Source of the DNA: Verrucomicrobiia bacterium
Lineage (GTDB): Bacteria; Verrucomicrobiota; Verrucomicrobiia; Verrucomicrobiales; DEV007
Length of the DNA stretch: 64,000 bases
Direction: 5' to 3'
NCBI GenBank assembly: GCA_020439945.1
Contig: JAGRPB010000005.1
Span: forward strand, 1 to 64,000
Position numbers and translations under genes: made by a program
Notes under the pieces: generated by a model
The model's input: only the letters and a program-made list of their open reading frames with translations
The model's database searches: none
Told to the model about the DNA's origin: nothing
Shown here: positions 2,578 through 62,401 of the stretch, in pieces
Position numbering within the stretch: the stretch's first letter is position 1
How the letters are laid out: every line of letters begins with the position of its first letter

Positions 2578-2804
2578 TCTTCGGGATTTCCGATGCCTGG
2601 GTCAGGGACGCATCCATCCTTCGCTGAATGATCGCAACCGGAATCAATCCGGCAACCTGGTGCCGAGGTTCCTCCGCGACGACCCAAGCGCATCCCCTTT
2701 CAACCGTATCCGAGGTTCGTCGATGCCAACCGAATCAAGAACCTTTCCCAAGTCACGAAGCGTCCTGATTGAACGTATTTATTTGCAGAATTCATGCGTG
2801 GTTC

Positions 2805-3281: not shown

Positions 3282-3586
3282 AACCCGAGAGACAGCGGCG
3301 GGGCTTAAGGAGCAGGCCGGTTAGGACAACTGGAAACCTCGAGAGCGAAGCCGGTCCAAAAAAACCTTCCCGACCATTGGCGTTTGGGGACAAATTCGCG
3401 AACTGTCCGGAATGAAGGAATCTCGAAGAATCGTCCCCACGTCGGACGATGAGGCTCAGGGCGACGTGATTTTTCCGGCAGGCAAAATGCCCTTTCACCC
3501 TAATGAGCCGATAACGTCGGCACCGGTATCATAGGGTGGCCGACTATTCCCTTTTCTCTCACCGATCTGCCAGTTAAACCGTCGCG
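3282..3586. other. Non-coding stretch before the two-component operon
   Basis: I see no credible gene in these 305 bases. Overlapping short ORFs on both strands have no domain or start signal. The promoter of the downstream response-regulator operon should lie here, but no convincing -35/-10 pair, operator palindrome or terminator hairpin with a T-run stands out. Confidence 0.5.
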
Positions 3587-41968: not shown

Positions 41969-42745
41969 ATGAAAATCCTTTGTTGCCAGACAGATATCTC
42001 GTGGGAAAACCGGGACGAGAATTTCGAAAAGATTGAGGGAATGCTGGGCGAAACCGTGATCGAGCCCGGGTCCTTGTTGATTTTTCCGGAACTGGCCACG
42101 GCGGGCTTTTCCATGAACGTCCCGGCCATCGCGGAATCCGCTGACGGCCCCTCGGCGCAGTTTTTTGCCAACATCGCGCGGCGCACGGACAGTCACGTGC
42201 TCGCGGGAATCCCGGGGCGCAATCCCGATTCGGGTCTCGGATGGAACGAGGCGGTCTGCTTTTCCCCGGACGGCTCGGAGTTGGGCCGCTACCGGAAGAA
42301 TCACCTCTTTCCCCTCGCCAACGAAGGTCATTTCTACGAAGCCGGAACCGAATCGATCCTGTTGGACTGCGATGGCTGGAAGGTCGCGCCTTTCATCTGC
42401 TACGACCTGCGGTTCCCAGAACTTTTCCGCAACGCCGCGCGCCGGGGCGCCGATCTCTTTGTCGTCATCGCCAACTGGCCCGCGCTTCGCGAGGACCACT
42501 GGACCACGCTACTGCGAGCTCGCGCCATCGAAAACCAGGCTTACGTCGCCGGGGTGAATCGCTGGGGTGCCGACCCGAATCTCGAATACTCCGGCGCCAG
42601 CCTGGTGGTCAGCCCAACTGGCGAAGTGATCGCTCGGGCCGAGTCCGAGCCCACGGTCCTTCGCTCGCTGCTCGAGCGCAACGCCCTCGACGACTGGCGA
42701 TCGCGCTTCCCGGCACTAGCCGACATGAAACCCGCTTCATTCTAA
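41969..42745 (+). CDS. Carbon-nitrogen hydrolase (nitrilase superfamily, omega-amidase/YafV-like)
   Basis: The 258-residue enzyme starts at the ATG at 41969 (MKILCCQTDISWENRDEN). The Glu-Lys-Cys triad is visible: Glu in IFPELATAGFSMN, Lys in GRYRKNHLFPLANEGHF, Cys in APFICYDLRFPELFRN. The GFSMN and WENR segments resemble YafV/Nit2 omega-amidases, which hydrolyse alpha-ketoglutaramate. It is the first gene of a rightward operon and lies 47 bp before the hybrid synthase. In the pathway it could recycle an amide nitrogen donor, trim the product, or simply be linked; the sequence does not decide. Confidence 0.9.
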   Translation: MKILCCQTDISWENRDENFEKIEGMLGETVIEPGSLLIFPELATAGFSMNVPAIAESADGPSAQFFANIARRTDSHVLAGIPGRNPDSGLGWNEAVCFSPDGSELGRYRKNHLFPLANEGHFYEAGTESILLDCDGWKVAPFICYDLRFPELFRNAARRGADLFVVIANWPALREDHWTTLLRARAIENQAYVAGVNRWGADPNLEYSGASLVVSPTGEVIARAESEPTVLRSLLERNALDDWRSRFPALADMKPASF

Positions 42746-42792: not shown

Positions 42793-45700
42793 ATGAGGTC
42801 CGAGAAACCCGTCATTCAAATCAGTGCCACGTTTACCGCCGAGCCATTGCGCCCGGCGTTGGCGTTCTGGTTGCGTGAACTCGGGATCGACCTCCACATT
42901 CGTTTTTCCGGCTACAATCAGGTCCTGCAACAGGCTCTCGATCCCGCCAGCGAAAGCGCCGCCAATCAGGAAGGGTTCAACGTCTTTCTCGTTCGTCCCG
43001 ACGATCTTCGTGCCGGCAACGGCGCCCACGGACTTGCCGACGAATTGACGAACGCGCTCACCGGTCTTGCTTCCCGCTCGCGGGCCACCCAACTCGTGAT
43101 TTTCTGTCCCCATGCCGAGGCAGATCCGGAAACAACGCGATTCGAGGCGGAGGTTGCCGAAAATCTGGCGCAGCTGCCCAACATCGAAGTCAACAGGGTT
43201 GAGTCCTGGACCCAACCCTCTTCAGTCGACTCGGTTTTCGATCCCGAAGCGGATCGCTCCGGCCGGATTCCCTTCACCGAAACCTTTTACGCCACACTCG
43301 CGACGGCCATCGCGCGCCGGATGAGCGCTCACCTTCGCCCGCCGACGAAGGTGTTGGTGCTCGATGCGGACAACACGCTCTGGGGCGGTGTCTGCGGCGA
43401 AGATGGGGCGGAAAAACTCGACCTCGCCGGACCATGGAAGTCGGTCCGCGACTTCGCAATCGCGAAACGGACCGAAGGTTTCCTGCTTTGTCTCTGCTCG
43501 AAAAACAGCGAAGCCGATGTGGATCGCGTCTTCGAAACTCGCGCCGCGGAACTCGGATTGACGCGTGCCGATTTCGCCGGTTGGAAAGTCAACTGGCAGC
43601 CGAAATCTTCAAACCTGATCGAGCTGGCCGGCGAGCTGAACCTCGGCATCGACAGTTTCGTGTTCCTCGACGACAACCCGGCCGAGATCGCCGAAGTCGC
43701 GGCAAACTGTCCGGGCGTAGTCGCACTCACCCTGCCGAAGGACGAGTCGGAGATTCCCGCCTTCCTTAAAAACCTGTGGAGTCTCGATCGGGTGCGCCTG
43801 ACAGAGGAAGACGCGAAACGCGCCGAGTTTTATCAGCACGAAGCCGAGCGACGCCAACTCAATGAAAGCGCGCCGAGCTTTGCCGATTTCCTCGCCAGCC
43901 TTGAGCTGAAGATCGACATCCACGAAGCCACGACGGCGGAACTGCCGCGCATTTCCCAGCTCACGCTGCGGACAAATCAATTCAACGCGAATGGGCTTCG
44001 ACTTTCCGAGACGGAACTTTCGGAGCGACTCGAAAAGGGAACGCGCTGCCTTGCGGTTCACGTTTCGGATCGCTTTGACGACTACGGTCTGGCTGGCGCG
44101 ATGCTGATTTCCACCGACTTCACCGTCGAAGGATTCATGCTCAGCTGCCGCGCCATGGGCAAGGGCGTCGAGCGAGCCATGGTGACCCGGCTGGCCGAGG
44201 AAACTGAGGCGGCCGGAATCGCTTTCCTTTTCAGCGAAACGGAACGCAATGAGCCCTGCCGTCGATTCTTCGAAGGTATCGGCGCGACTCGCACCTCGAC
44301 TGGCTTTACCCTTCCCACTTCGGCCGCGAAAAGTCTACCGCTCATTCCGATCGAGCCAGTCGCAAAAACGAGCGGCGGCATGAACGGCACCGCCAAGAGA
44401 ACATCGGCGAATCTGCTCTCGAGCGAACTTGCCCATCGGATCGCGAACGAGCTTCGCCATCCGGAAAGGCTCCTCGCGCAATTGCAGGCGGGCAACCTTC
44501 ACCCCCGACCCGAGATCGCCCAGGCATTCGTGAAGCCGGGCAGCAAGCTCGAGAATCGGATCGCCGAGATCTGGCGAAACATCCTCTGCCTCGAAACGGT
44601 CGGCATCGGCGATCCTTTTTCGGCACTCGGCGGAACCTCCGTTCAGCTCGTTCGACTGCACGCTCAATTGCAGCGCGAATTCGATCGCGATATCGCGCTG
44701 ACGGAACTGTTCGAACTGCCGACCATCGCCGATCAGGTTCGTCGCATCGAAGCCGGCGCTGCGGCGGAGAAATCGGTCGAAGTGATCGAACAGATTGAGA
44801 AATCCGACGACGACGCGGTCGCCATCATTGGGATATCACTTCGCGTTCCCGGCGCCAACGATCCTGATCAGTTTTGGGAAAACCTCGCTGGCGGCGTGGA
44901 ATCGCTGTCGCGTTTTGAGCGGGAAGAGATTCCCGAGTTCGAAGACTACGACAAACCGGGCTTCGTGCCGGTGAAAGGCATCATCGACGATGTCGACAAG
45001 TTCGACGCGGCCTTCTTCGGCATTCTTCCGAAGGACGCGAAGATCATGGACCCGCAACAGCGGATCTTTCTCGAACTGGCCTGGGAAGCGATGGAACGCG
45101 CCGGGTATCAGCCGGACAATCTCCGCCATCGCATCGGGGTTTACGCCGGCGCCTATTTCGATTCTTACCTGCTCGCCAACCTGTGCACCGATCGGGAATT
45201 CCTCGCGGACCTGATTCCGCAAATCCAGGTCGGTTCGCTCCAGACGGAACTTGGCAACGACAAGGATTACCTCGCCACGCGCGTCGCCTTCAAACTCAAC
45301 CTGCGCGGCCCGGCGATGACGCTGCAGACGGCTTGCTCGACATCGATGGTCGCCATCGTCGAAGCCTGTCGCGCGATTCAATCCGGCCTCTGCGACATGG
45401 CGCTCGCCGGCGGCGTGACGATCACGCTGCCGCTGAAGCGTGGTTACCACTATACTGAGCAGGGCATGCTTTCCGGCGACGGTCATTGCCGTGCCTTCGA
45501 CGAGAAGGCCTCCGGCACCGTGTTCGGCAACGGCGCGGGCGTGATCATGCTCAAGCGACTGAGCGATGCGATGCGCGATCGCGATCATATCCACGCCGTC
45601 ATTCGCGGTACCGGAATGAACAACGATGGCGGCGTGAAACACAGCTACACCGCGCCGAGTGTCGAAGGACAGACCGACGTCATCCGCATGGCGCATCGCG

Positions 45701-48700
45701 ATGCCGGGATCGATCCGCGAACCATTTCCTACATTGAAGCGCACGGTACCGGCACGCCGCTCGGCGACCCGATCGAGATCACCGCGCTGACCAAGGCGTT
45801 TCGCGCTGGCGGTGTCGAAGAAAACCAGATCTGTGCGGTTGGTTCGCTGAAAACCAACATCGGTCACCTCGACGTGGCTTCCGGTGTGTGCGGTGTGATC
45901 AAGACGGCGCTGTCACTCGAGAAAGCGCAGCTACCGCCCATCGTGCATTTCCAGAAAGCGAATCCGAAGATCGATTTCGAGAACAGCCCGTTCTACGTGA
46001 ACACCACGCTGGCGCCATGGAAGGCCGGCTTCGAGAATGCTCCACGTCGCGCTGGCGTGAGTGCCTTTGGCGTTGGAGGGACGAACGCGCACGTCATCGT
46101 CGAAGAGTCGCCTGTCATCGAATCGAAACCGTCCACCCGGGACTCCCAGTTATTCCTGCTTTCAGGGCGCACCGATGCCGCGCTAGAACAGGCCGCGACC
46201 AACCTGGCCGCATTTGCCGAGAGATCGGACAATCTCGATCCCGCCGACGCGGCGTGGACGCTGGCGATCGGACGCAAGCCTTTCCGTTGCCGTCGCGCGG
46301 TGGTGGCAAAAGATTTCGCCGACCTGAAGGCACAGATCGCCGCGGGCAAAGGCGCGAAAGGCATCGCCGACCGTAGCAATCCGCCGGTGAACTTCATGTT
46401 CCCCGGCCAGGGCGCGCAGCATCTCGACATGGCGCGGGATTTCTACGAGTCCGAACCACGTTTCCGCGAGCTGATTGATCGTTGCTCGGAGATTCTTCGT
46501 CCGCATCTCGGATTGAACCTGACCGACGTGTTGTTCCCCGGCGAGGGCGCTGATCGCGAATCGGCTTCAAAACAGCTCAAGCATACCGTACTCGCTCAGC
46601 CGGCGATCTTCGTGATCGAATACGCGATGGCCGATCTCTGGCAGAGCTGGGGCATCGAGCCGGCGGCGATGATCGGTCACAGCGTCGGCGAGTTCGTGGC
46701 GGCGTGCCATGCCGGCGTCTTCGATCTCGAAAGCGGACTGGAACTGCTCGCGGCTCGCGGTCGACTGATGGGCGATCTCCCCGGCGGTGGCATGCTTTCC
46801 GTTCGATTGGCCGCCGAGGAATTGAAAAAGCGGCTTCCGGATTCGCTCGATCTCGCGGCCGTGAATGGTCCCGCCCTGTGCGTGGTGGCTGGACCGCACG
46901 AGGAGTTGGACGCCTTCGCAAAGCAACTCGAAGCCGACGACATCATCGCGAAACCGCTGCACACCTCGCACGCCTTCCATTCGTGGATGATGGATCCGGT
47001 GATCGATCGATTCGCGGCCTGCTTTGAGAAAATCGAGCTGCGCGCGCCTTCGAAACCGATCCTTTCGACCGTCACCGGCGAGTGGCTGACCCAAGCGGAA
47101 ACCACCGATCCCCGCTACTGGGCGAAGCACTTGCGCGAGACAGTTCGTTTCCATGATGCCGTCGCGATCCTCGGCGCCGTACAGCCGGATCAGGTTTTCC
47201 TGGAAGTCGGCCCCGGCCAAACCCTGACCGGACTGGCGCGGCAAACGCTGAATCGAAAGGACGGTCACTTCGCCGTTTCGACCTGCCGCCACGTGAAGGA
47301 GGAAGGCTCCGATCACGCCAACGCCCTCGAATCGCTCGGCAAACTTTGGACGGCTGGAGTCGAGGTGAATTGGGAAGCCTTTTACGGACATGAGACCCGC
47401 AAGCGCGTCGTTCTGCCGACCTATCCCTTCGAGCGGAAACGCCACTGGGTCGATCCCAAGCCGATGGACGCCGCCGCCATCCCCGCGACGGTCCCGCCGA
47501 CACCTGTCGCCCTCCCCGTGCCCGCGCCAGAGGCGCTGCCTCAGCAACCCGATTTTTCCCGCACCGCTATGAGCACTCCCGAAAACATCTCGCGCCTCGA
47601 CGCCCTCGGCGAAGCGGTCCGCGGCATCCTGACCGATCTCTCCGGCATTCCCGAAGAGGATCTCGCGGGTGACGCGACCTTCCTCGAACTGGGCTTCGAC
47701 TCGCTCCTGCTGACCCAAGTCAGCAAGGCCTTTCAGGATGGATTTCAGACCGAAATCACGATGCGGCAACTGATGGCGGAGGTCTCCACCATCGACGCGA
47801 TGGTCAATCACCTGGATGCCACGCTTGCTCCGGACCAGTACCGCGATACCCAATCCATTCCGGTTCTCGAGACGCCAGCCTCGGCTCCAACTCCAGTCAC
47901 TGCAGCGCCTCAACCCGCGGTTCCTGTGCAGACTCCGACCATTGCTCCTGCGCCGATTCCCAGTTTCACGCCGACCTCTGCCGGAAGCGGCGTTGAAAGC
48001 CTCGTTGCTCAACAGCTCGAACTGATGCGCCAGCAACTGGCGTTGCTTCAGGGTCATCCCGTCGCGCCCGCCGCTTTGCCTCAAGCCGCACCGGCTCCGG
48101 TCGCACCTGTTCCCGCCGCACCACAGCCCGCGCCGGCACCGGCTCCCAAGCCCGCCGCGAAATCCTCTTCGAACGGCGGCAATGGCTCCGGCTCCAGTTC
48201 TCCGGACGTTTCCGCGCCTTCGACGACAATCAGTCGCGACGCCGAAACGCTCACCGATCAGCAGCAGCGTCATCTCGATGAACTCATCGCGAAGTACATC
48301 GACAAGACCCGCACCTCGAAGGAACTGACCGCAAAATATCGCCAATGGTATGCCGATCCCCGGACCGTTTCCGGTTTCAATCGGAACTGGAAAGAGATGA
48401 TCTACCAGATCGCGGTGAAGAAATCGAAGGGCTCGCGGCTGCTCGACATCGACGGGAATGAGTACATCGATCTGCTCAACGGTTTCGGTCCGAACTTCCT
48501 GGGTCACTCGCCGGATTTCGTGACCAAGGCGCTGCACGAGCAACTCGATCGCGGCGTCGAAGTCGGTCCGCAGAGCGTGACCGCCATGGAAGCGGCCAAG
48601 CTGTTCTGCGAGATCACCGGCAACGGACGCGCCAGCTTTGTGAACACCGGTTCGGAAGCGGTCCAGGCCGCGATGCGCCTCGCGCGGACCGTGACCGGTC

Positions 48701-51700
48701 GCGACAAGATCGTGATTTTTGCCAAGGACTATCACGGTAACTTCGACGAGATGCTGGTGCGCTCGGTCGGCGAAGGCGACAAGCGTCGCTCCCTGCCCAT
48801 CGCGCCGGGAATCCCCTTCCGTGCGGTCAACGATGTGATCGTGCTGCCCTACGGTTCCGACGAAGCGCTCGAAGTGATTCGCAACCAGGCCAGCGAACTC
48901 GCCGCGGTGATCGTCGAACCGATTCAGAGCCGGCGTCCCGAGTTTCAGCCCAAGGATTTCATCCGCGAAGTTCGCGCCATCACCGAGAGATCGGGCACGG
49001 TGTTCGTTTTCGACGAGGTCATCACCGGTTTCCGAACCGGTCCTCGCGGCGCCCAGGAATACTATGGGGTGAAGGCCGACATCGCGACCTACGGCAAGGT
49101 CATCGGCGGCGGCATGCCCATCGGCGTGGTCGCCGGAAAAGCGGAATACATGGACACCTTCGATGGTGGCATCTGGCAGTACGGCGACGATTCCTTCCCC
49201 GAGAAGGGCGTGACTTTCTTCGCCGGCACTTTCGTTCGTCATCCGCTGGCGATGGCCGCGACCAAGCAGGTGCTGACTTTCCTCCGCGACAAGGGTCCCG
49301 AATTCTGGACCACGGTCCGAGAGCGAGCCAATCGTCTCGCCGGATCGGTCGACCGGATGTTCGTCGAAAACGAGGCACCGTTCCGGATGCCGAATTTTGG
49401 CTCGCAGATGTTCGTCCGCGTCACTGAGGATCACAAGTATGCCAATCTGCTCTTCTTCCACTTGAGGCAGAAGGGCGTGTTCCTCCTCGAAGGGTTCCCC
49501 ACCTACATGACGGCGGCGCACACGGACGAGGACGTCGACTACGTGATCGACGCCTTTACGGAATCGGTGGCCGAATTGCAGGAAGGCGGATTCTTCACCC
49601 GGCCCGCGCACCTTCCCGCGCCACACCTCAATGGTTCTCGACTCACCGGCCCCAAGCGGCTGCTCACCGATGTCGCGAATCCAGCGGTCTCCGAACCGGA
49701 AGTCCAGTTTGTCGCTCAGACGTCCGACGATCCAGGACGCCTCTATCCGATGACCGAATCACTGCACGAGGTATGGCTCGCTTCCCAAGCCAGCGAAAAT
49801 GCCTCCTTGTGTTTCAACGAAGTCAACACGCTCACCTTTTCGGGCCCGCTCGACGAAGCCGCGCTGAAACAGGCCGTGCAGGATGTCGTGGCGCGTCACG
49901 AGGGTCTTCGCGCCGTCTACCAGGCCGATGGCGAGGGTTTTCGTGTGCAACCGGAACTCACGATCGAGGTTCCGGCCAAGGCTGTTGACTCGGTCGACCC
50001 GATCGCAGCCGACGCCGAGATCGAAGCGCTGCTGAAAGCCGAACAAACAACGCCGTTCGACCTGGAAAACGGACCGCTTTTCCGCGCCACCCTGGTCCGG
50101 AAAAACACGGACGAACACGTCCTCATTCTCAACGCCCACCACCTCGCCTGCGACGGTTGGTCGTTCAACCTGGTCACCGCCGAACTCAGTCAGGCCTATG
50201 CCTCGCGAAAGAACGGCGAGACACCGCAACTCGAGAAACCGAGTCGGCAATTCGGCGATCACGCCATCGAAACGGCCTGGAAAGAACAGCAGTCCGATCG
50301 GAGCGACAGCGAAGCCTACTGGCTCGAACGATTCGCCGATCCAGTGCCGCCTCTTTCGCTGCCCACCGATTTCGCCACGGCCGACGAACCCGACTTTCGC
50401 GCCGACACGCTCGCCGAACAACTCGATGCCGAGACCTGCCGAGCTCTCAAAAAGGCCGCCGGAAAATCCGGCGCCACGCTCTTCGCGCTCGTGATGAGCG
50501 CCTACCAGGCCCTGCTCCACCGGATCAGCCGTCAGCACCGGCTGGCGGTCGCTTTCCCCGTCGCGGGCCAGAATTCCGAAGGCGCCCAAGGTCTGGTCGG
50601 GCATTGTGTGAACTTCCTGCCGTTCGTGTCCGACATCGATCCGGACCAGAAATTCTCGGCCTTCGTCGGCGACGTACAGCGCCATCTCCTGAACGCACTC
50701 GAGCATTCCGACTATACCTACGGAAAGCTGATCAAGAAACTGGGCATCGCCCGTTCCGTGGGCCGGAGTTCCCTGGTGGAAGCCGTCTTCAACCTGGAGC
50801 GGATGGATGGTTATGAAGAGTTTGCCGGGGTCAAAACTTCGATCGCCGAAGTCGATCGGCGGTTCACCGGAAACCCGCTTTTCCTCAAGGGGCTCGAAAG
50901 CGAAAACGGTCTCGAACTTCGCTTCGATTTCCAGACCGGACTTTTCTCGAAGGAAACAGTTCGTCACTGGCTGGCTTCCCTGCGAGCGATCCTGGAAAAG
51001 GTGATCGCGACGCCTGACGCCACCGTGTCCGAGATCGCGTCTTCGATGGCCGACTGGCAATTCGATCTGCTGAAAAGCTGGAACGACACCGCCACCGACT
51101 ATCCTCGCGACAAGTCGATCATCGATCTCTTCGACGAGGTCGTCGCCGAGCATCCCCGCGCGGTCGCGATTCGCCTCGACGACAGAGAGATTTCCTACCG
51201 TGAAATTTCCGATCAGGCGGACCGGTTTGCCGCGTTTCTGGAGAATAATGCAAAGGGGTCACTCCAACGAGTCGGTCTGTTTCTCGAACGCACGCCGGAC
51301 CTGATCGCGGCCGAATTCGCCATCCTGAAAACCGGCGCCGCCTGCGTGCCGCTCGATCCCGAGTATCCCTGCGAGCGTCTCCAGTTTGTCCTGAAAGACA
51401 GCGGCGTGGATGCCGTGCTGACCACCGAGTCACTCAAGGACCGGATGCCTCGCGATCTCAATATCCTGCTCGTCGAGGATGCGAGCCGGACTGGCAAAGC
51501 TGACCTTTCTCAACGCACGATCGAGCCCAACGCACCCGCGTTTCTGCTCTACACGTCCGGCTCCACCGGCACTCCGAAAGGGGCCATCATTCCGCATCGG
51601 GCAGTCAACCGACTCGTTAGAAACACAAACCTCTGCGAACTCGGTCGCGGCGAAGTGATTCTGCATCCGTCGAGCGTCTGCTTTGACATCATGCTGTTCG

Positions 51701-53796
51701 AGATTTTCGGCGCACTCCTGAATGGCGGGACCGTGGCGCTTCCAACATCCGGACCGATCAACATCGAAGAGATCACCCGCTGCATTCGCGAACTGGGAGT
51801 GACCACCCTCTGGCTGACCAGCGGACTCTTCCAGATCATGGTCGAGGAAGACATCGACGCCTTCGCCGGGCTCACGCAGCTCGTCACCGGCGGCGATGTG
51901 GTCTCGGCGGATCACGCCCGGCGTGTGCTCGAAAGACATCCCGCTCTCCGGCTGATCAACGGTTACGGCCCAACGGAAAACACCACCTTCACGACTTGCC
52001 ATCAGATCGTGACCGGCGATTTCAACGGCAGACCTCTCCCCATCGGACGTCCCCTGCCGAACAATTCTGTCTGGATTCTCGATGAATCCGGCCTGCCAGT
52101 TTCGCCCTGCATTCCCGGTGAGCTGTGCTGCGGCGGAGACGGTCTGGCTCTGGAATACCTGAACCGTCCGGAGCTGACGGCGGAACGCTTCTTCGCCGAT
52201 CCGTTCAGCGACTCTCCAGGTGCCCGCCTCTATCATACCGGCGACCTCTGCCGCTACCGGGCTGACGGTGAGCTGGAGTTTTTCGGTCGCATCGATCACC
52301 AGGTGAAAGTCCGCGGTTTCCGGGTCGAACTGGGCGAAATCGAAGCGCGGCTGCTCGACTTCCCCAAGGTTCATCAGGTCAAAGTCATCGCCCACGGAAA
52401 CGACGCCGGGAGCAAGTCCCTGATCGCCTATGCTTCGCCTCTCACCGGCCAATCCCTGACCAGCGCCGAGTTGGCCGACTACCTGCGCTCCAAGTTACCG
52501 GCCTACATGGTGCCGAACACCTTCGTGATCCTCGACGAACTGCCCATCAACCGAAATGGCAAGATCGACCGCCACGCGCTACCGATACCCGAGCAGCTCG
52601 ATGAAACGACCGATGGTGAGGCCCATCCGGGCGTCAATGGCAACCAGCCTAGCCCGACCGAAGAGGCGCTCACCGTTTTCTGGAAAGAGATCCTCCGCGT
52701 TCGCGAGATCGGACTCGACGATGACTTCTTCGCGATGGGCGGTCACTCTCTCCTGGGGATGCGCCTGTTCTCCCGCATCCAGCGATATCTCGGCATTTCC
52801 CTCCCGCTGGCCATGCTCTACAAGGCGCCAACGATTCGTCAACTGGGACGGGTGATCGATCATGGTCTGGAGCAGGAAGCGACTGAATCCGAAACGGAAG
52901 AACGCGAAACGCTTCCAGCCGAAGAATCTCCCACGAAGACGACGGCATCCCCATCGGAACACGTGCCTGCCCCGCTTGCCGATACGACCATCGTCGTTCA
53001 GCCGAAAGGCGATCAACGACCCCTGTTCGCGGTTCACGGAGGCGATGGCGGCATCCTTTTCTACTGCAACCTGGCGGAGCGCCTGGGTGAGCACCGACCC
53101 TTCTATGCCTTCGAAGCTCCGGCGCTGACGGCGGGCGGTCCGATCCCGGATGAATCGGTCGAAACGACCGCGGCTCGCTACGTTTCCGAATTGCGAAAAG
53201 TGCAACCGGAAGGTCCCTACCTGCTCTGCGGCTATTCCTTCGGCGGCGTCGTCGCCTATGAAATGGCGCATCAGTTGAACGCCGAAGGGCAGGAAATCAC
53301 CTTTCTCGGTCTAATCGACACCGAGAATCCCGCCGCCATGGTGAGGAAACTCAGTGTCGCCGAGCGTGTCGCTTTCAACTGGCAAAAGCGCAATCGCGAG
53401 GACGCCGGCGTCATGGAAAAGATCGGCAGGCTCAGCAAGCGGGTCGGTACCGGCATTGCCTACCGTCTCTGGTTTGAAGTCGAAGGCGCCGCCGCCAAAA
53501 CGCTGCCTCCGTCGAAGAATACCGGCTGGCTACGCCAGGCTCAGATTCGCACCTCCTACGAACGCGCCATGGATGCCTACGTGCCGAAGCCGATCGACGG
53601 TCAGGTCACCCTCTTTCGCGCGGAACAGGGCAACGACAAGTTCGATGTCGGTGAAGACTACGGCTGGGGACCGCTGGCGTCCCGCGGCGTGGAAGTCATC
53701 GACGTTCCGGGCAATCACATCACCATCTTCGACAAACAGAACATTGATGGCTTTGCTGAAGCTTTCCGTGACGCATTGTCCGGCGTGCGGGTGTAA
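42793..53796 (+). CDS. Hybrid PKS/NRPS megasynthase: FkbH-ACP-KS-AT-ACP-AMT-C-A-PCP-TE
   Basis: A 3667-residue chain from ATG 42793 (MRSEKPVIQIS); the open frame upstream overlaps the nitrilase gene. FkbH-like HAD domain with GNAT-like tail (about 170-520) begins LVLDADNTLWGGVCGEDG. ACP1 has Ser616 (GGTSVQL). KS: Cys848, His984, His1025. AT: Ser1297 (GHSVGE) and HAFH at 1393-1396, the malonyl type. ACP2: Ser1637. A Pro/Ala-rich linker (about 1685-1815) leads to a class III aminotransferase with PLP Lys2102 (TYGKVIGGG). C: HHLACDG at 2449-2455. A: YTSGSTGTPKG from 2920. PCP: Ser3319. TE: Ser3482 (GYSFGG), His3642. No KR, DH or ER. The order suggests a C3 starter, one malonate extension, transamination of the beta-keto group and addition of one amino acid. 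Confidence 0.95.
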   Translation: MRSEKPVIQISATFTAEPLRPALAFWLRELGIDLHIRFSGYNQVLQQALDPASESAANQEGFNVFLVRPDDLRAGNGAHGLADELTNALTGLASRSRATQLVIFCPHAEADPETTRFEAEVAENLAQLPNIEVNRVESWTQPSSVDSVFDPEADRSGRIPFTETFYATLATAIARRMSAHLRPPTKVLVLDADNTLWGGVCGEDGAEKLDLAGPWKSVRDFAIAKRTEGFLLCLCSKNSEADVDRVFETRAAELGLTRADFAGWKVNWQPKSSNLIELAGELNLGIDSFVFLDDNPAEIAEVAANCPGVVALTLPKDESEIPAFLKNLWSLDRVRLTEEDAKRAEFYQHEAERRQLNESAPSFADFLASLELKIDIHEATTAELPRISQLTLRTNQFNANGLRLSETELSERLEKGTRCLAVHVSDRFDDYGLAGAMLISTDFTVEGFMLSCRAMGKGVERAMVTRLAEETEAAGIAFLFSETERNEPCRRFFEGIGATRTSTGFTLPTSAAKSLPLIPIEPVAKTSGGMNGTAKRTSANLLSSELAHRIANELRHPERLLAQLQAGNLHPRPEIAQAFVKPGSKLENRIAEIWRNILCLETVGIGDPFSALGGTSVQLVRLHAQLQREFDRDIALTELFELPTIADQVRRIEAGAAAEKSVEVIEQIEKSDDDAVAIIGISLRVPGANDPDQFWENLAGGVESLSRFEREEIPEFEDYDKPGFVPVKGIIDDVDKFDAAFFGILPKDAKIMDPQQRIFLELAWEAMERAGYQPDNLRHRIGVYAGAYFDSYLLANLCTDREFLADLIPQIQVGSLQTELGNDKDYLATRVAFKLNLRGPAMTLQTACSTSMVAIVEACRAIQSGLCDMALAGGVTITLPLKRGYHYTEQGMLSGDGHCRAFDEKASGTVFGNGAGVIMLKRLSDAMRDRDHIHAVIRGTGMNNDGGVKHSYTAPSVEGQTDVIRMAHRDAGIDPRTISYIEAHGTGTPLGDPIEITALTKAFRAGGVEENQICAVGSLKTNIGHLDVASGVCGVIKTALSLEKAQLPPIVHFQKANPKIDFENSPFYVNTTLAPWKAGFENAPRRAGVSAFGVGGTNAHVIVEESPVIESKPSTRDSQLFLLSGRTDAALEQAATNLAAFAERSDNLDPADAAWTLAIGRKPFRCRRAVVAKDFADLKAQIAAGKGAKGIADRSNPPVNFMFPGQGAQHLDMARDFYESEPRFRELIDRCSEILRPHLGLNLTDVLFPGEGADRESASKQLKHTVLAQPAIFVIEYAMADLWQSWGIEPAAMIGHSVGEFVAACHAGVFDLESGLELLAARGRLMGDLPGGGMLSVRLAAEELKKRLPDSLDLAAVNGPALCVVAGPHEELDAFAKQLEADDIIAKPLHTSHAFHSWMMDPVIDRFAACFEKIELRAPSKPILSTVTGEWLTQAETTDPRYWAKHLRETVRFHDAVAILGAVQPDQVFLEVGPGQTLTGLARQTLNRKDGHFAVSTCRHVKEEGSDHANALESLGKLWTAGVEVNWEAFYGHETRKRVVLPTYPFERKRHWVDPKPMDAAAIPATVPPTPVALPVPAPEALPQQPDFSRTAMSTPENISRLDALGEAVRGILTDLSGIPEEDLAGDATFLELGFDSLLLTQVSKAFQDGFQTEITMRQLMAEVSTIDAMVNHLDATLAPDQYRDTQSIPVLETPASAPTPVTAAPQPAVPVQTPTIAPAPIPSFTPTSAGSGVESLVAQQLELMRQQLALLQGHPVAPAALPQAAPAPVAPVPAAPQPAPAPAPKPAAKSSSNGGNGSGSSSPDVSAPSTTISRDAETLTDQQQRHLDELIAKYIDKTRTSKELTAKYRQWYADPRTVSGFNRNWKEMIYQIAVKKSKGSRLLDIDGNEYIDLLNGFGPNFLGHSPDFVTKALHEQLDRGVEVGPQSVTAMEAAKLFCEITGNGRASFVNTGSEAVQAAMRLARTVTGRDKIVIFAKDYHGNFDEMLVRSVGEGDKRRSLPIAPGIPFRAVNDVIVLPYGSDEALEVIRNQASELAAVIVEPIQSRRPEFQPKDFIREVRAITERSGTVFVFDEVITGFRTGPRGAQEYYGVKADIATYGKVIGGGMPIGVVAGKAEYMDTFDGGIWQYGDDSFPEKGVTFFAGTFVRHPLAMAATKQVLTFLRDKGPEFWTTVRERANRLAGSVDRMFVENEAPFRMPNFGSQMFVRVTEDHKYANLLFFHLRQKGVFLLEGFPTYMTAAHTDEDVDYVIDAFTESVAELQEGGFFTRPAHLPAPHLNGSRLTGPKRLLTDVANPAVSEPEVQFVAQTSDDPGRLYPMTESLHEVWLASQASENASLCFNEVNTLTFSGPLDEAALKQAVQDVVARHEGLRAVYQADGEGFRVQPELTIEVPAKAVDSVDPIAADAEIEALLKAEQTTPFDLENGPLFRATLVRKNTDEHVLILNAHHLACDGWSFNLVTAELSQAYASRKNGETPQLEKPSRQFGDHAIETAWKEQQSDRSDSEAYWLERFADPVPPLSLPTDFATADEPDFRADTLAEQLDAETCRALKKAAGKSGATLFALVMSAYQALLHRISRQHRLAVAFPVAGQNSEGAQGLVGHCVNFLPFVSDIDPDQKFSAFVGDVQRHLLNALEHSDYTYGKLIKKLGIARSVGRSSLVEAVFNLERMDGYEEFAGVKTSIAEVDRRFTGNPLFLKGLESENGLELRFDFQTGLFSKETVRHWLASLRAILEKVIATPDATVSEIASSMADWQFDLLKSWNDTATDYPRDKSIIDLFDEVVAEHPRAVAIRLDDREISYREISDQADRFAAFLENNAKGSLQRVGLFLERTPDLIAAEFAILKTGAACVPLDPEYPCERLQFVLKDSGVDAVLTTESLKDRMPRDLNILLVEDASRTGKADLSQRTIEPNAPAFLLYTSGSTGTPKGAIIPHRAVNRLVRNTNLCELGRGEVILHPSSVCFDIMLFEIFGALLNGGTVALPTSGPINIEEITRCIRELGVTTLWLTSGLFQIMVEEDIDAFAGLTQLVTGGDVVSADHARRVLERHPALRLINGYGPTENTTFTTCHQIVTGDFNGRPLPIGRPLPNNSVWILDESGLPVSPCIPGELCCGGDGLALEYLNRPELTAERFFADPFSDSPGARLYHTGDLCRYRADGELEFFGRIDHQVKVRGFRVELGEIEARLLDFPKVHQVKVIAHGNDAGSKSLIAYASPLTGQSLTSAELADYLRSKLPAYMVPNTFVILDELPINRNGKIDRHALPIPEQLDETTDGEAHPGVNGNQPSPTEEALTVFWKEILRVREIGLDDDFFAMGGHSLLGMRLFSRIQRYLGISLPLAMLYKAPTIRQLGRVIDHGLEQEATESETEERETLPAEESPTKTTASPSEHVPAPLADTTIVVQPKGDQRPLFAVHGGDGGILFYCNLAERLGEHRPFYAFEAPALTAGGPIPDESVETTAARYVSELRKVQPEGPYLLCGYSFGGVVAYEMAHQLNAEGQEITFLGLIDTENPAAMVRKLSVAERVAFNWQKRNREDAGVMEKIGRLSKRVGTGIAYRLWFEVEGAAAKTLPPSKNTGWLRQAQIRTSYERAMDAYVPKPIDGQVTLFRAEQGNDKFDVGEDYGWGPLASRGVEVIDVPGNHITIFDKQNIDGFAEAFRDALSGVRV
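43189..43227. repeat. Dispersed palindromic repeat, copy 3 (inside the megasynthase)
   Basis: Arms AACAGGGTTGAGTCC and GGACCCAACCCTCTT match at 13 of 15 positions when folded. The repeat is read in frame as NRVESWTQPSSVDS (residues 134-147), just before the FkbH catalytic core and in a segment that looks like a linker. NRVES is also what copy 2 encodes. Confidence 0.75.
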
Positions 53797-53818: not shown

Positions 53819-54571
53819 ATGCCGTCCACCTTTCAGCCAACGATCCAGGCATTCGACGCCCTTCCTCCCGCTCCCACTCTCGCACCGCCAGAGCGGGGAA
53901 GCGTGGATCTGTGGCTCGCTTCGTTGACGGGTGACAGCGCGGAGTTTGAACCGCTGCTTACCGACGACGAAAAGAGACGCGCCAACGCCTTCCACTTCGA
54001 GGTCGACCGGAAAAAATTCATCATCGGACGAGGGCGACTCAGGATCTTGCTGGGTCGCTATCTCCGATGCGATCCGGCAACCGTGTCCATCGAGCCCGGT
54101 AAGAATTTGAAGCCTCGACTGGCGAACTCCGGCGGGAAGCTGGACTTCAACCTCTCCCACAGCGGCGATCACGTCCTCTATGCCGTCACCTCGGGCGAAA
54201 GTGTGGGAGTCGATCTCGAATCCATCCATCGAGAAGGGACTCTCCCGGATTGCGCGAAGACGATCTGTTCGGAGGAAGAACTTCCGCGTCTGAGAAGACT
54301 CCCATCGGACCGCCTTCCCCGCGCCCTACTGAGATTGTGGACGGCGAAGGAAGCCTTTCTGAAGGCATTGGGAACCGGCCTGCACTTGCCGCCCGACCAA
54401 TTGGAGATCCCGTCGTCGATCACGGACGGCTCTCCGGATTCCACCACGCTTCTCTGGCTGGAATCACCCGAAGTCTCCGGGCGCTATCGCATCTACCCGA
54501 TGCCCGAATGCGAACGCCGCATCGGATACTCGGCGGCGGTGGCGCTGGAACAGTATGACCCGAAAGACTAA
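53819..54571 (+). CDS. Sfp-type 4'-phosphopantetheinyl transferase
   Basis: A 250-residue enzyme from ATG 53819 (MPSTFQPTIQAF), 22 bp after the synthase stop; the open frame further upstream only overlaps the synthase. Family motifs are complete: FNLSHSGDHVLYAV, VGVDLESI with the Mg-binding acidic pair, and LLRLWTAKEAFLKALGTGL. It transfers phosphopantetheine from CoA to the Ser of carrier domains, so it should activate Ser616, Ser1637 and Ser3319 of the synthase and the ACP of the neighbouring PKS. Its stop codon overlaps that of the convergent glycosidase gene (CTAA at 54568-54571). Confidence 0.95.
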   Translation: MPSTFQPTIQAFDALPPAPTLAPPERGSVDLWLASLTGDSAEFEPLLTDDEKRRANAFHFEVDRKKFIIGRGRLRILLGRYLRCDPATVSIEPGKNLKPRLANSGGKLDFNLSHSGDHVLYAVTSGESVGVDLESIHREGTLPDCAKTICSEEELPRLRRLPSDRLPRALLRLWTAKEAFLKALGTGLHLPPDQLEIPSSITDGSPDSTTLLWLESPEVSGRYRIYPMPECERRIGYSAAVALEQYDPKD

Positions 54572-55665
54572 GAAGTTGGCGTCTCGAAAAGACGACGCAG
54601 GGCGGCACCGGCGCCCTTGCCAAGGGTCCGGTTGGGTTCGACCTGGGTTCCCTCGTGCCACTCGTTGAACGAAGTGATCGCGACCGATCGAAGCCGGGAG
54701 TCGAGGTGCTCCTTGGCCATGGCCCCCTGGGCTTTCAAGAACGAGACCGAACTCGCTCCCGGTTTCAGTACCCGGGGAATCACGTAGTAGGGATTCTCCC
54801 GGTTTCCTCCGCCGGCGTTGAATCCGGGAATGATTCCGGGGACAAAACCAACCCCTTCCTCGGCAGCCAGGGAACGATACCGGGCAAAAACGTCACCCGA
54901 GCGGGCCACGAAATCACTCCAATCGTGCGACGCGGAAAACTCCGCGGGTCCGTGCATGTTGTAACTGGTGATGGCGTCGAATGCCTGGATCCGACGCCGG
55001 TCCGGCGCTCCCCAGTAGACCTCGTCCCCCACCAGGAAGAGTGAAAATCCCTGCGCCTCCACCACCGCCCTCGCCCGGCTCAACGCGGTCACGTAGTCGC
55101 CCGAGAAAGTTCGGCTCAGGTAGAGATAGACCACCGGTTTCCCGCCGATCCGATAGTAAGCCGGATGAGCGAAGTATTCGCGGGCCAGATGGCGGAAGTG
55201 CTCCGCGAAATCGGCCGCCCGTCTCAGGTCGAACTCGATACCGCGCGCCGAATCGAGCCCCAGGATTCCCTCGGACTCGTAGAGGAGACAGAAAGTCTGC
55301 GGTAGACCGGGATTGGCCGCGTTTTGGGCCTCGATCTCCGGCACCACGTGGCGAAGCATCGTTTCGTCTTCCCACGATCCTGGCCCCCACCAGGAACAGA
55401 TCCAGTTGGCGATTCCAAACTCTTCCGACCACTCCAGGTGCTGGCGAATGGTTTCGGGGGATCTCGATGAGTAGCGCCCCAACTCGGGACCGTCGCCCCG
55501 CTCCTTTCCGGCATAGCCCAGATTCCAATGACGACCGGTATCCGAATACCACGGATAGTAGTAGGCGCTGACGTGAATGGGCGAGGTTTCCACCGCCCCG
55601 CTCGCAGCGTGGGCGACTGCGCCCGGCAACCAGGGAGCCATCGAAAGGAAGCGACGCCGGTCCAT
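54568..55665 (-). CDS. Secreted GH99-like glycoside hydrolase
   Basis: About 365 residues from ATG 55665 (MDRRRFLSMAPWLPGAVAHA), a twin-arginine-like signal (RRRFL). The mature part matches endo-mannanase/mannosidase GH99-like (WsbX-type) proteins: VSAYYYPWYSDTGRHW, LEWSEEFGIANWICSWWGPG, YRIGGKPVVYLYLSR, FDAITSYNMHGPAEF, and near the end VAITSFNEWHEGTQVEP, the conserved acidic region. It would cut alpha-linked mannose-type glycans outside the cytoplasm. It is co-oriented with the PKS (gap 7 bp) and probably in the same transcript, odd for a PKS operon but consistent with the polysaccharide genes upstream on that strand. Confidence 0.85.
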   Translation of the reverse strand: MDRRRFLSMAPWLPGAVAHAASGAVETSPIHVSAYYYPWYSDTGRHWNLGYAGKERGDGPELGRYSSRSPETIRQHLEWSEEFGIANWICSWWGPGSWEDETMLRHVVPEIEAQNAANPGLPQTFCLLYESEGILGLDSARGIEFDLRRAADFAEHFRHLAREYFAHPAYYRIGGKPVVYLYLSRTFSGDYVTALSRARAVVEAQGFSLFLVGDEVYWGAPDRRRIQAFDAITSYNMHGPAEFSASHDWSDFVARSGDVFARYRSLAAEEGVGFVPGIIPGFNAGGGNRENPYYVIPRVLKPGASSVSFLKAQGAMAKEHLDSRLRSVAITSFNEWHEGTQVEPNRTLGKGAGAALRRLFETPTS

Positions 55666-55672
55666 CACGATT

Positions 55673-58600
55673 TCAGACGGTTGCAGTTTTTCCCCGCCTG
55701 TGGCTCGCCGGAGTCTTTGGCGCCGGTGACTCGGCAAGATAGGATCCCACACACTCGGCCAGCTGATTCAGATATGGTGGGTCGAAAATCTCGAGGTGCG
55801 TTCCTCCGATGTAGCGAAACGCGAGTTCCCCGTTCAGCCAACCACGCCAGCCGCGGATCTCGTCGGGATACTCGAACTTGTCCCAGGGATGCTCGGTCAC
55901 CACCAACAGGGCGCGAAACGTGACCGGCCTGGGCCGATAGGTTCGGACGAGGGATTCGAAACTCCGGTGAGCGAGGGTGCGTTTCTTTCTCAGTTCGTCC
56001 CGCCAGAAGAGTCGTTCGCCCAGGAAAACCCCAATGTGGCGAAACATCCAACCGGCGAGATGAACGACGCGACGCGACAGACTGGCGACTCTGCCCGTCA
56101 TCGAAAGATCGGCGGTCGTCAGCCAGTGGTTTCGCAGGCGGTCGATATTTCCCACCTGCCGGATCGTCCCCGGGTTGAACATGTCCAGAATGATGACCGA
56201 CTCGATCTCATCGCCCTCTTCGATCGCGATCCTCGCGGTTTCATAGGCGAGTAGTGCGCCAAAGGAATAGCCGCAGAACACCTTCGGCCCCTCCGGTTGG
56301 AATTCCCGGATCGCCTCGTAGTAGCGCCGGGCCAGGGATTCCAGATCGCCGACGAGCGCGTCGTCATCGCCGTGAAACAAGGGGCTTTCCACCGCAAAAA
56401 CGGACCGATCATTTCCCACTCGCTCCGCCAGTTCGCGATAAAACATCACGCTTCCATCGATGGCGTGAAAACAGAACACGGGCGCACCGCGCTCCGGATT
56501 TCGAAGAACGAGCGGCACCACGAAACTCGGCGCCCCGTCGAGTCGGTCGTTGGGAATCTCGTCATCGATCAAACCCAGTGCCGCCGCCACGCTGCGCGGT
56601 GTGGGCGAACCGAGGAGAGCGGACAAGGGGAGCGATTGCCCGAACTTGCGCTGGATCGTGGCCAGCAGTCGCACCGCCGTCACGGAGTCTCCGCCCCGAT
56701 CGAAGTAATGGTCGTCCGGCCCGAGAGTGGCGTCCTTCAATTCCGCGCGCCAGAGCGACACCATCGTCGACAGCGCGTCTTCGGAGGTGGTTTCTTCGGA
56801 AAGGTCGTCAGTGTCAGATTGCTTCGGCGGAAAGAGATCCCGCCATTTCCGTCTCCACCCGTTTATCGGCTTCGGGGACTCGGGATGGTGGGGCCGCCTC
56901 TGATTCGACGTCTCCGTCGGAAAGGCCGCCGTCGCCAGGCAGGTCTGCTCGACGAAATGGCAACCCGGTAGCGAGAGGCGCCGCCGACCACTCGCCGGCA
57001 GAATTTTTTCCCAGTCAATCGGGTAACCGGACACCCAGCTTTCTCCGAGAGCCCGGAGCGACATCTGCTCCTCATCGGAGGCCGCCTCGCGCGCGCCCGG
57101 GAGAGTCGACAGAGTGACATGTTCGGAATCGCCCAGCACCTCACCCGCCAACGCAGTCAGCGTATTTCCCGGTCCGATTTCCAGGAGCAGCAACGGGCTT
57201 CCGTCATCCTCCGCCGCCCAGGCCGACAGGGTTCGCAGGTTCTTTTCAAAACGAACCGTCGAGCGGAGATGCCTCGCGAAATAGGCCGGAGAGACAGCTT
57301 CTTCCGCCGTCAGCCAATCCTCGGTCAGATTCGACAGGACAGGCAGTTCCGGCTCCCTCATCGCGATCCCGTCGAAGGCTCGTTCGAAAACCGGCAGGAC
57401 TGATTCCATCGCCCGGGAATGGAACGCGGCCGAGGTTTTCAATCGGCGAAACCGGATCGCGTTTCTTTCCAGATCCGCCTCCCATTCATCGAGCGCCGCC
57501 AGCGCCCCCGCGACGACAGTCTGGCTGGGGCTGTTCACCACCGCCAGGTCGATTTCGGCATGCGCCTCCAGCAGTTTCACCACCCGCTTTTCCTCCGCAA
57601 AAACCGCCGTCATTCCGCCAGATCCGTTCGCCTCACCCATCAACCGGCCCCGCCGCGCCACGATCGCCAACGCGTCTTCCAACGAGAACACCCCGGCCAA
57701 AGCGGCGGCCACATATTCGCCGATGCTGTGCCCGAGAACCGCGGCCGGCTCGATTCCCCAGGCTTGCCACCGTTTCGCCAGCGCCCAGCAAACGACGAAC
57801 AGCGCCGGCTGAGCGTATTCGGTCTGGTGAATCAGATCACGCTCGGCTGAATCCGGCTCGGGAAACACGATCGCCTCCAGTTTTCGATCCAGGTGACGAT
57901 CGAGATGCCGCGCGCACTCCTCGAAGGCTCGGCGAAACGCCGCGTCGTTCTCCCACATTCCCCGTGCCATCCCGGCATATTGCGCGCCTTGGCCGGGAAA
58001 GAGGAAAACCGGACGACGCTCCCGCACTTGGCCGACGAATTCGCGATTCGGGGGTTCCCGCCACGCGGCGGAGAGTTCTTCCGCGCTCCGGGCCGCCCGA
58101 AAGTCACGCACCTTCCACTCGCGCCGCCCTCGCTGAAGCGTGAAAGCGGCATCGGCCAGTGACAATTCCGGATTCCTTTCCAGAAAAGTCGGCCATTTGC
58201 CGAGCAGCCCTTCGAGACCTTCATGGGAGCGCGCGGAAAACGGCAACAGTTGCCACCCGGTCGATTCCGCGGGTTCGGGCAAATCCGCCGGCGCCTCTTC
58301 CACGATGGTGTGGGCGTTCGTTCCTCCGAGTCCGAAGGCACTCACGGCGGCCAGGCGCGGCTTGTCGTTAGCGGTCTTCCAACTTTCCTTCCCGATCGCG
58401 AGACGGAACGGACTGTCCTCCAATCTCAGCCTCGGGTTGGGAGTTTCCACATTCAGCGTGGCGGGAATCGTGCGATGTTTCAGGGCCAGCACGACCTTGA
58501 TCAATCCCGCGATACCGGCCGCGGCATCGGCGTGACCGATGTTCGATTTCACGGAACCGATCGGACAATCGCCGCGTCTCGTTGTCGTCTCGCGCCAGGC

Positions 58601-59593
58601 GATGGTCAACCCTTCGAGTTCGATCGGATCGCCCTTTTGCGTGCCGGTTCCGTGCGCTTCCACCAGCGTGATGTCGTTCGCGGTCACCCCGGCGCGCCGC
58701 ATCGCCAGGCGAATCACTTCGGCCTGACCCTCGGGACTCGGCGAAGCGTAACTACGGCGCCGACTACCGTCATTGTTCACCGCTCCACCGCGAATCACCG
58801 CGTGGATCTGATCGCCGTCGCGTCGGGCCGCGGCCAGCGGTTTCAACAACACGGCACCGGCCCCCGAGGTGAAGATCGTGCCTCCCGCCTCCGCGTCGAA
58901 CACCCGGCAGCGTCCTTCGGACGAATACATCAGGCCGTGCTCATAGTCGTACCCCCGGCCCGGCATCCACGAATAGGAGACGCCACCGGCCACCGCCATC
59001 TCACAACGGCCCGCCCAGATCGCCTCGCAGGCCTCGTTCACCGCCACCAGCGAGGTCGAGCAAGCGGTCTGAATCGTGTTCGACGGCCCGCTGAATCCGA
59101 AGGTGTAGGACACTCGCGAGGCGAGATAGTCGGAGGCGTTGGCGATTCCCACCGAGAGGCGCTCTCCGATCGGCAATCCGATGTGAGGATAGAGGTAGAT
59201 CGGCGCCCCGCTGCCGGCATACACGCCCACCCGGGAGCCCTCCGGCTCGCCGGGATAACCGGCGTCCTCCAAGGTCTCAAAAACCGTGCGCAGGAATACG
59301 CGGAACTGCGGATTGAGCAATTCCGCCTTCGCGGGGCTGAGTCCGAAAACGCACGGCTCGATGTCCAGCATCCCGTCGGCGTCCACTCCACGCCGAACGT
59401 AGGTGGCCCGTTGGTATTCCTCCGGAGACACGCCGCCGGCCCGCAATTCTTCCTCCGAGAAATCACGAATTCCCTCCCGTCCCTCGTCGATCAGTTTCCA
59501 GTAGGCGTCGATGTCCGAAGCCCCGGGAAACCGGCAACCCATTCCGATGATGGCAATTCCGTCGATTGCCGACTGAGGATACGTGTTTGGCAT
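55673..59593 (-). CDS. Single-module polyketide synthase: KS-AT-ACP-TE
   Basis: A 1306-residue chain from ATG 59593 (MPNTYPQSAIDGIAII). KS (about 10-430): Cys178 (QTACSTSL), EAHGTGTQKGDP and KSNIGHADAAAG histidines, and an unusual LLNPQFR where DPQQR is common. AT (about 530-850): FLFPGQGAQYAG, Ser623 (LGHSIGEY), and SAAFHS in the specificity region, close to the malonyl HAFH type but with the first His changed. ACP: Ser970 (GGDSVTAV). TE: Ser1110 (GYSFGALL), His in GTHLEIFDPP. There are no reductive domains and no loading ACP, so it probably accepts an acyl chain in trans and releases a beta-keto or pyrone-like product. It converges on the PPTase gene through the GH99-like gene. Confidence 0.93.
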   Translation of the reverse strand: MPNTYPQSAIDGIAIIGMGCRFPGASDIDAYWKLIDEGREGIRDFSEEELRAGGVSPEEYQRATYVRRGVDADGMLDIEPCVFGLSPAKAELLNPQFRVFLRTVFETLEDAGYPGEPEGSRVGVYAGSGAPIYLYPHIGLPIGERLSVGIANASDYLASRVSYTFGFSGPSNTIQTACSTSLVAVNEACEAIWAGRCEMAVAGGVSYSWMPGRGYDYEHGLMYSSEGRCRVFDAEAGGTIFTSGAGAVLLKPLAAARRDGDQIHAVIRGGAVNNDGSRRRSYASPSPEGQAEVIRLAMRRAGVTANDITLVEAHGTGTQKGDPIELEGLTIAWRETTTRRGDCPIGSVKSNIGHADAAAGIAGLIKVVLALKHRTIPATLNVETPNPRLRLEDSPFRLAIGKESWKTANDKPRLAAVSAFGLGGTNAHTIVEEAPADLPEPAESTGWQLLPFSARSHEGLEGLLGKWPTFLERNPELSLADAAFTLQRGRREWKVRDFRAARSAEELSAAWREPPNREFVGQVRERRPVFLFPGQGAQYAGMARGMWENDAAFRRAFEECARHLDRHLDRKLEAIVFPEPDSAERDLIHQTEYAQPALFVVCWALAKRWQAWGIEPAAVLGHSIGEYVAAALAGVFSLEDALAIVARRGRLMGEANGSGGMTAVFAEEKRVVKLLEAHAEIDLAVVNSPSQTVVAGALAALDEWEADLERNAIRFRRLKTSAAFHSRAMESVLPVFERAFDGIAMREPELPVLSNLTEDWLTAEEAVSPAYFARHLRSTVRFEKNLRTLSAWAAEDDGSPLLLLEIGPGNTLTALAGEVLGDSEHVTLSTLPGAREAASDEEQMSLRALGESWVSGYPIDWEKILPASGRRRLSLPGCHFVEQTCLATAAFPTETSNQRRPHHPESPKPINGWRRKWRDLFPPKQSDTDDLSEETTSEDALSTMVSLWRAELKDATLGPDDHYFDRGGDSVTAVRLLATIQRKFGQSLPLSALLGSPTPRSVAAALGLIDDEIPNDRLDGAPSFVVPLVLRNPERGAPVFCFHAIDGSVMFYRELAERVGNDRSVFAVESPLFHGDDDALVGDLESLARRYYEAIREFQPEGPKVFCGYSFGALLAYETARIAIEEGDEIESVIILDMFNPGTIRQVGNIDRLRNHWLTTADLSMTGRVASLSRRVVHLAGWMFRHIGVFLGERLFWRDELRKKRTLAHRSFESLVRTYRPRPVTFRALLVVTEHPWDKFEYPDEIRGWRGWLNGELAFRYIGGTHLEIFDPPYLNQLAECVGSYLAESPAPKTPASHRRGKTATV

Positions 59594-59601
59594 CAGCGAC
59601 T

Positions 59602-59680
59602 GGACAGGGTCATCTGAAAGACCCAACAGGGTCTGGCTCGCGATCAAAGAGGGTCGAGTCTGCCGCCCTACCCTGTTGAC
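59602..59680. repeat. Dispersed palindromic repeat, copy 4 (extended, at a gene end)
   Basis: Two direct ACAGGGT units (59604-59610 and 59626-59632), GAGGGTCGAGTC (59649-59660) and ACCCTGTTGAC (59670-59680) form an expanded version of the repeat. On the minus strand it encodes the last 23 or so residues of the glycosyltransferase, including its stop codon, and ends 9 bp before the PKS start codon. Confidence 0.6.
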
Positions 59681-62261: not shown

Positions 62262-62401
62262 GACCTGGAGAATTTGCGATTATCAAAAACTAATCTCAAC
62301 ATTGCTATTTTTATCAAATTTTGATTGATTTGCGAAAATCTTCAAGCATTTTTATCAGAAATTACTTTTGTGATTTTTATAAATCCGAATCCGCCGTTCT
62401 G
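62262..62401. promoter_or_regulatory. AT-rich divergent promoter region of the polysaccharide genes
   Basis: These 140 bases separate two divergent genes and are strongly AT-rich. TTTTTATC occurs at 62308-62315 and 62349-62356, and a related ATTTTTATAAAT lies at about 62375. The same octamer is present at 41884 upstream of the biosynthetic operon. Both promoters of the divergent pair must lie here; exact -35/-10 boxes cannot be assigned. Confidence 0.55.

Follow-up and report, generated by a model that had tools for sequence, protein, structure and literature searches.

In a window of 64,000 nucleotides from a Verrucomicrobiia bacterium (contig JAGRPB010000005.1), a single gene encodes a PKS-NRPS that begins with an FkbH loading unit and stops after one amino acid, and the question arises what such a protein would make and where its product would end up. 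Our preferred reading, to which we assign a probability of roughly 0.55, is that a glycerate-started beta-amino dipeptide is made by this one protein in a single pass and that the product is most likely linked to, co-exported with or co-regulated with a surface polysaccharide. The features on which this reading is based are collected in Table 1.

Table 1. The synthase, its domains and the neighbouring genes in the window (residue ranges of the domains as matched by Pfam/NCBIfam)
Feature	Position	Strand	Residues	Basis
CN_hydrolase (nitrilase), YafV/omega-amidase type, 258 aa, ATG 41969	41969..42745	+		PF00795 2.5e-49
PKS-NRPS single protein, 3667 aa	42793..53796	+		translation, Pfam, NCBIfam, alignment
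Loading unit: SGNH-like (residues 1-180), HAD/FkbH (185-335), GNAT-like (340-510)	42793..44472	+	FkbH 185-498	TIGR01686, model, PDB fold search
ACP1, Ser in GGTS, residues 613-616	44530..44772	+		Pfam, alignment
KS	44812..46122	+	674-1053	PF00109/PF02801; Cys-His-His present
AT, malonyl-type HAFHS	46393..47364	+	1201-1524	PF00698, alignment
ACP2, GFDSL	47560..47862	+		Pfam, alignment
Class III aminotransferase (AMT), MycA type	48310..49602	+	1867-2233	PF00202; PDB 6kfm 1.6e-127
C domain	49744..51039	+	2318-2749	PF00668 6.9e-85; HHLACDG
A domain, pocket DIFWVGGTFK	51130..52563	+	2780-3257	Pfam, alignment, pocket extraction
PCP, GGHS	52669..52854	+	3293-3354	Pfam, alignment
TE, GYSFGG with Asp and His	53017..53796	+	3409-3518	PF00975, alignment
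4'-phosphopantetheinyl transferase (PPTase), 250 aa, 22 bp after synthase	53819..54571	+		PF01648, HetI-like
GH99/WbsX-type glycan enzyme	54568..55752	-		domain search
Second small PKS, KS-AT-ACP-TE	55673..59815	-		domain search
Glycosyltransferase	59610..60818	-		domain search
Initiating sugar transferase (Bac_transf)	60849..62261	-		PF02397 2.7e-55
Wzz-domain chain-length/export protein, runs out of window	62321..64000	+		domain search

The frame of the synthase stays open between position 42241 and the stop codon at 53796 and contains no internal stop when translated from 42793. This last position is the likely start, since homologues have their N-termini at about this residue and since the additional stretch upstream lies, in a different frame, over the nitrilase gene; a start at 42241 was rejected because the frame thereby added runs into the nitrilase gene and is unconserved. 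The one-polypeptide order FkbH-ACP-KS-AT-ACP-aminotransferase-C-A-PCP-TE, which a sequence-only reading of this DNA had proposed, was recovered by Pfam and NCBIfam, including three PP-binding stretches, and recurs in many genomes, which excludes a chance arrangement. Its further claim that all active-site residues are present was likewise borne out by alignment with relatives, which returned the motifs ACS, EAHGTGT and NIGH in the KS, GHSVGE and HAFHS in the AT, and TSGSTGTPKG in the A domain. The two AT motifs are what we take to be a malonyl signature, and a hydroxy- or methoxymalonyl-ACP route was rejected, as neither an acyl dehydrogenase nor an O-methyltransferase is encoded nearby. In the two genus-g9 genomes (L121 of G241 and L128 of G238), the TE has Cys as its nucleophile (GYCFGG), whereas Ser is found at this position in the remaining aligned relatives.

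With 282.8 bits against TIGR01686, the FkbH domain lies well above the NCBIfam cut-off of 146.65. The HAD motif DxDxT, the catalytic Lys and Asp and a conserved Cys were all found in it, and D191/D193/T195, K237, D293/D294 and C452 are invariant among 12 FkbH domains. An AlphaFold model of residues 1-560 (mean pLDDT 84, with an alignment of 12 sequences as input) matches BF1531 (3slr) best in a fold search of the PDB, followed by HAD phosphatases and, more weakly still, SGNH/GDSL hydrolases, and according to the model the unit carries an additional N-terminal SGNH-like domain (residues 1-180). No other FkbH match was obtained in the window's own genome. FkbH units load glycerate in the NRPSs for vioprolide, cystomanamide and dysinosin (PMC8949500, PMC10099666, PMC6520454), and from these examples and family knowledge we infer glyceryl as the substrate group of the FkbH unit in the window.

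The AMT has mycosubtilin synthase A (6kfm) as its closest PDB entry, far ahead of glutamate semialdehyde aminomutases, and it possesses the YGK PLP lysine as well as the MycA-type position, with a PKS ACP before it and a C domain after it, so that the earlier proposal of an iturin-type, beta-amino-forming enzyme holds as far as the sequence goes. As the amine source of the MycA AMT is glutamine (PMC3870968), glutamine is probably also the donor here. In this context, the nitrilase gene, whose end lies 47 bp upstream of the synthase and which had been overlooked in the sequence-only reading, deserves attention. Its product carries a Glu-Lys-Cys triad (FPEL, YRKN and ICYD motifs read off the translation) and has PRK10438 (the E. 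coli YafV model) as its best NCBIfam match with 179.7 bits, which is below the equivalog cut-off of 249; the best PDB matches are 2e11, 3p8k and mouse Nit2 (2w1v), the latter being an omega-amidase (cited in PMC6302742). Glutamine transamination is rendered irreversible by nitrilase-family omega-amidases (PMC6302742), and the enzyme of the window would probably act likewise, hydrolysing 2-ketoglutaramate and thereby making the glutamine-dependent transamination one-way. Such a nitrilase gene lies directly upstream of the synthase on the same strand in 13 loci, the window included, which belong to several genera and two families and occupy deep as well as shallow positions in the AMT tree. None of this type was detected in the 26 AMT loci of other phyla that were inspected, so the pairing is not universal; a Xenorhabdus plasmid examined for the fabclavine nitrilase carries a different cluster.

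Several other interpretations of the enzymes themselves can be imagined. That the synthase is decayed or inactive appears highly improbable, given an intact frame, the presence of every active site and many intact relatives; some relatives are split (G408, G425, G463), but nothing in the window itself points in this direction. An FkbH unit that loads a group other than glyceryl, such as lactyl, would lead to a different beta-amino acid, and for the FkbH unit of bryostatin lactate has reportedly been proposed as the outcome. The Cys of the CSKN motif is, moreover, replaced in some relatives of the alignment. The HAD residues and the SCR cysteine are, however, all invariant, the outcome reported for FkbH units in NRPSs is glycerate, and no gene that could provide a lactyl unit is found nearby, which is why we regard such loading as quite unlikely. 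A stronger objection concerns the nitrilase, which might be a tailoring or unrelated enzyme that exerts no ketoglutaramate ratchet. Its score under the YafV cut-off and the several FkbH loci that lack a nitrilase fit this explanation, as does the listing of the nitrilase Zmn15 of the zeamine cluster merely as a possible tailoring enzyme (PMC3547906). We nevertheless consider it unlikely, because the gene is tightly paired with a glutamine-type AMT in two bacterial families, because AMT and nitrilase are also combined in the zeamine and fabclavine clusters, and because in G238 and G241 the copy adjacent to the synthase is the sole close homologue of the window nitrilase (about 46%, with other matches at about 30%).

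Under our preferred reading, in which each reaction, the donor, the stereochemistry and the fate of the product are predictions, the FkbH unit would take up and dephosphorylate D-1,3-bisphosphoglycerate and place the glyceryl group on ACP1, from where the KS would extend it with malonyl supplied by the AT to 4,5-dihydroxy-3-oxopentanoyl on ACP2. The MycA-type AMT would then replace the beta-keto group by an amine taken from glutamine, while the adjacent YafV-like omega-amidase would clear the by-product 2-ketoglutaramate and so drive the transamination in one direction. Coupling of the beta-amino acyl chain to a Val-like amino acid on the A-PCP module would be carried out by the C domain, and the TE would free the dipeptide, possibly in cyclised form; the three carrier domains would be activated by the neighbouring PPTase, a gene for which is also found near the synthase in many relatives. 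The product, finally, would most likely end on a surface polysaccharide or be exported or regulated together with it.

The identity of the last residue can be approached through the A domain. Most relatives have the pocket DA(F/L)W(I/L)GGTFK, and many match the Val code DAFW(I/L)GGTFK exactly, DAFWLGGTFK having been assigned to Val in MlcM (PMC9113097). The pocket of the window departs from this consensus by Ile at position 236 and Val at position 299 and is probably valine-like, so that 3-amino-4,5-dihydroxypentanoyl-Val or a near neighbour is the predicted product. For this dipeptide, C10H20N2O5, an [M+H]+ of 249.1445 is calculated, or 231.134 if it is cyclised. The product logic of the sequence-only reading, namely a 3-amino-4,5-dihydroxypentanoyl unit joined to one amino acid and released by the TE, thus stands in its domain assignment and chemistry at the level of sequence, and is refined by the Val-like last residue and by glutamine as the probable donor. 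In the open-access literature searched, we found neither a compound of such origin, in agreement with its tentative view that none is described, nor a homologue with a characterised product, be it of this or of a different type.

A search of genomes for the same domain order revealed a recurrent family. Among 388 genomes of the phylum, the order is present in one protein in five genomes of another family and is split in a sixth, and within the order Verrucomicrobiales the AMT was found in 55 of 387 genomes. Of the 49 loci that were read, 21 are loaded by FkbH and 18 by an A domain, two have no loader, and the remainder are cut by contig ends; at least 17 intact FkbH-to-TE single proteins exist in Verrucomicrobiales genomes, the window included. 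On the AMT tree, the starter type requires four changes compared with a mean of 15 after shuffling, from which we conclude that loaders are rarely exchanged. The nearest named relative is the Verrucomicrobiia MAG Co_bin.17 (AMT 93%). The loader-less synthases (L169 of G511 and L167 of G505) start with the KS; G511 has nevertheless kept the nitrilase and polysaccharide neighbours.

What had also been overlooked is that the synthase lies in a polysaccharide setting, which makes a free new compound just one possible outcome. The PPTase gene is followed by convergent genes for the WbsX/GH99 enzyme, the second PKS, the glycosyltransferase and the initiating sugar transferase, and on the contig the Wzz gene is followed by a Wzx-type flippase and a further glycosyltransferase. 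The hallmarks of a surface-polysaccharide locus (initiating sugar transferase, glycosyltransferase, Wzz/Wzc and flippase) are thus found beside the synthase. The GH99/WbsX gene adjoins the synthase also in G450 and G397 of the same genus and in G511, and homologues of the glycosyltransferase are located beside the synthase in G397, G479 and G511 (71-76%) as well as in four alphaproteobacterial AMT loci (34-39%). In the comparisons, the second PKS was the best match for the KS-AT portion of most AMT synthases with an A-domain loader. A further observation in the window concerns positions 24677-27757 on the reverse strand, where radical SAM, AMMECR1 and Memo domains are combined in one ORF.

This setting recurs. 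When PF02563 and PF02397 were mapped in 43 genomes, a polysaccharide-export or sugar-transferase gene was located within 16 kb of the AMT in 25 of them (1.9 expected) or, counted by lineage, in 5 of 12 (0.6 expected; P ~1.5e-4), figures that presuppose random placement and lineages delimited by eye and are hence a guide; the 18 genomes that have no such gene within this distance are explained in part by contig ends. In six genomes of the other family mentioned above, genes for an outer-membrane barrel, Wza, Wzc and a sugar transferase come after the FkbH synthase in the same orientation; these export genes are found upstream of the synthase in ten A-loaded relatives, and in three genomes of the window's own family Wza and barrel genes are located upstream. 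The same pairing is present on seven proteobacterial plasmids (Aliiroseovarius, Rhodobacter, two Rhizobium, Jannaschia, Loktanella and Variovorax paradoxus); two plasmid loci with unannotated records were left out of the comparison. Among the controls, no polysaccharide genes were found near the bacillomycin synthase BamA, an example of the iturin-type synthases of Bacillus, which have none, or near the AMT loci of Spirosoma, Variovorax RA8, Paenibacillus, Xenorhabdus and Azospirillum. Methyltransferases of the TIGR04325 family recur beside proteobacterial AMT synthases (L203, L209, L211, L212, L215).

The repeated occurrence of the synthase gene in loci for polysaccharide assembly and export suggests that the product is part of the cell coat or moves along with it. 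No gene for a transferase that would plainly move the dipeptide to a glycan was identified, and no exosortase gene was found in the flanks of the window or of its relatives. One could also imagine a conventional secreted amino-polyol-Val dipeptide, possibly cyclised, that has no link to a glycan and whose neighbours merely share an accessory surface or biofilm region. A TE and a PPTase are present as in ordinary clusters, and loci such as those of G238, G241, G398 and G456 have no polysaccharide genes nearby. However, the pairing with polysaccharide genes recurs in different arrangements and phyla, and neither a dedicated small-molecule exporter nor a resistance gene adjoins the synthase of the window, so that this alternative appears possible but the less probable one. 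Returning to the coat-associated product, a broader and tentative extension, possible rather than probable from our point of view, would be a cross-phylum class of glycan-locus AMT PKS-NRPSs whose beta-amino acyl-peptide products would be attached to surface polysaccharides or move with them, with the Verrucomicrobiales members distinguished by the 1,3-bisphosphoglycerate start and a dedicated omega-amidase that would drive the glutamine transamination.

FkbH- and AMT-containing PKS-NRPSs are a known kind of system, and the more surprising aspects are the pairing with an omega-amidase and the recurrence of the synthase in glycan loci. The synthases for mycosubtilin, iturin and bacillomycin (MycA, BamA) share the order KS-AT-ACP-AMT-C, the MycA-type AMT and the beta-amino acyl chain with the protein of the window; MycA and BamA, however, start with a fatty acyl-AMP ligase and run on into a multimodular lipopeptide, whereas the protein of the window starts with FkbH, which sets it apart from the iturin family, and stops after one amino acid with a TE. 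In the NRPSs for vioprolide, cystomanamide, corramycin, dysinosin and foxicin, FkbH and a carrier likewise replace an A domain, but glycerate is coupled directly via C domains, whereas here the glyceryl-ACP would prime a KS and transamination would follow. In the cystomanamide pathway, too, a beta-amino acyl unit, a module for glyceric acid and a sugar occur together, yet an iso-fatty acid is the source of the beta-amino part, and glycerate is incorporated at a later stage by a separate module. The zeamine and fabclavine clusters contain a MycA-like AMT and a nitrilase, but represent PUFA-synthase-like iterative polyamine systems that are not loaded by FkbH. The roughly 1000-aa FkbH-ACP-TE proteins from an Aquisphaera plasmid, a cyanobacterium and a myxococcote (L139 13956-16967, L037 9992-12976, L048 9959-13081), whose FkbH part is 39-43% identical to that of the window, lack KS, AMT and peptide module and would yield a glycerate unit only. 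The Aquisphaera protein, which is encoded in an exopolysaccharide/exosortase locus, the only one in our comparison with an exosortase, might make glycerate substituents for a glycan.

Overall, glycolysis (through 1,3-bisphosphoglycerate), polyketide extension, transamination and peptide coupling would be joined here in one protein, a very small complete assembly line whose product is for this reason directly predictable and testable. The omega-amidase pairing further provides a testable explanation for the nitrilases of zeamine- and fabclavine-type clusters. Finally, as such synthases are repeatedly placed in polysaccharide loci of both Proteobacteria and Verrucomicrobiota, one may ask whether parts of surface glycans, rather than free antibiotics, are what many orphan PKS-NRPSs make.
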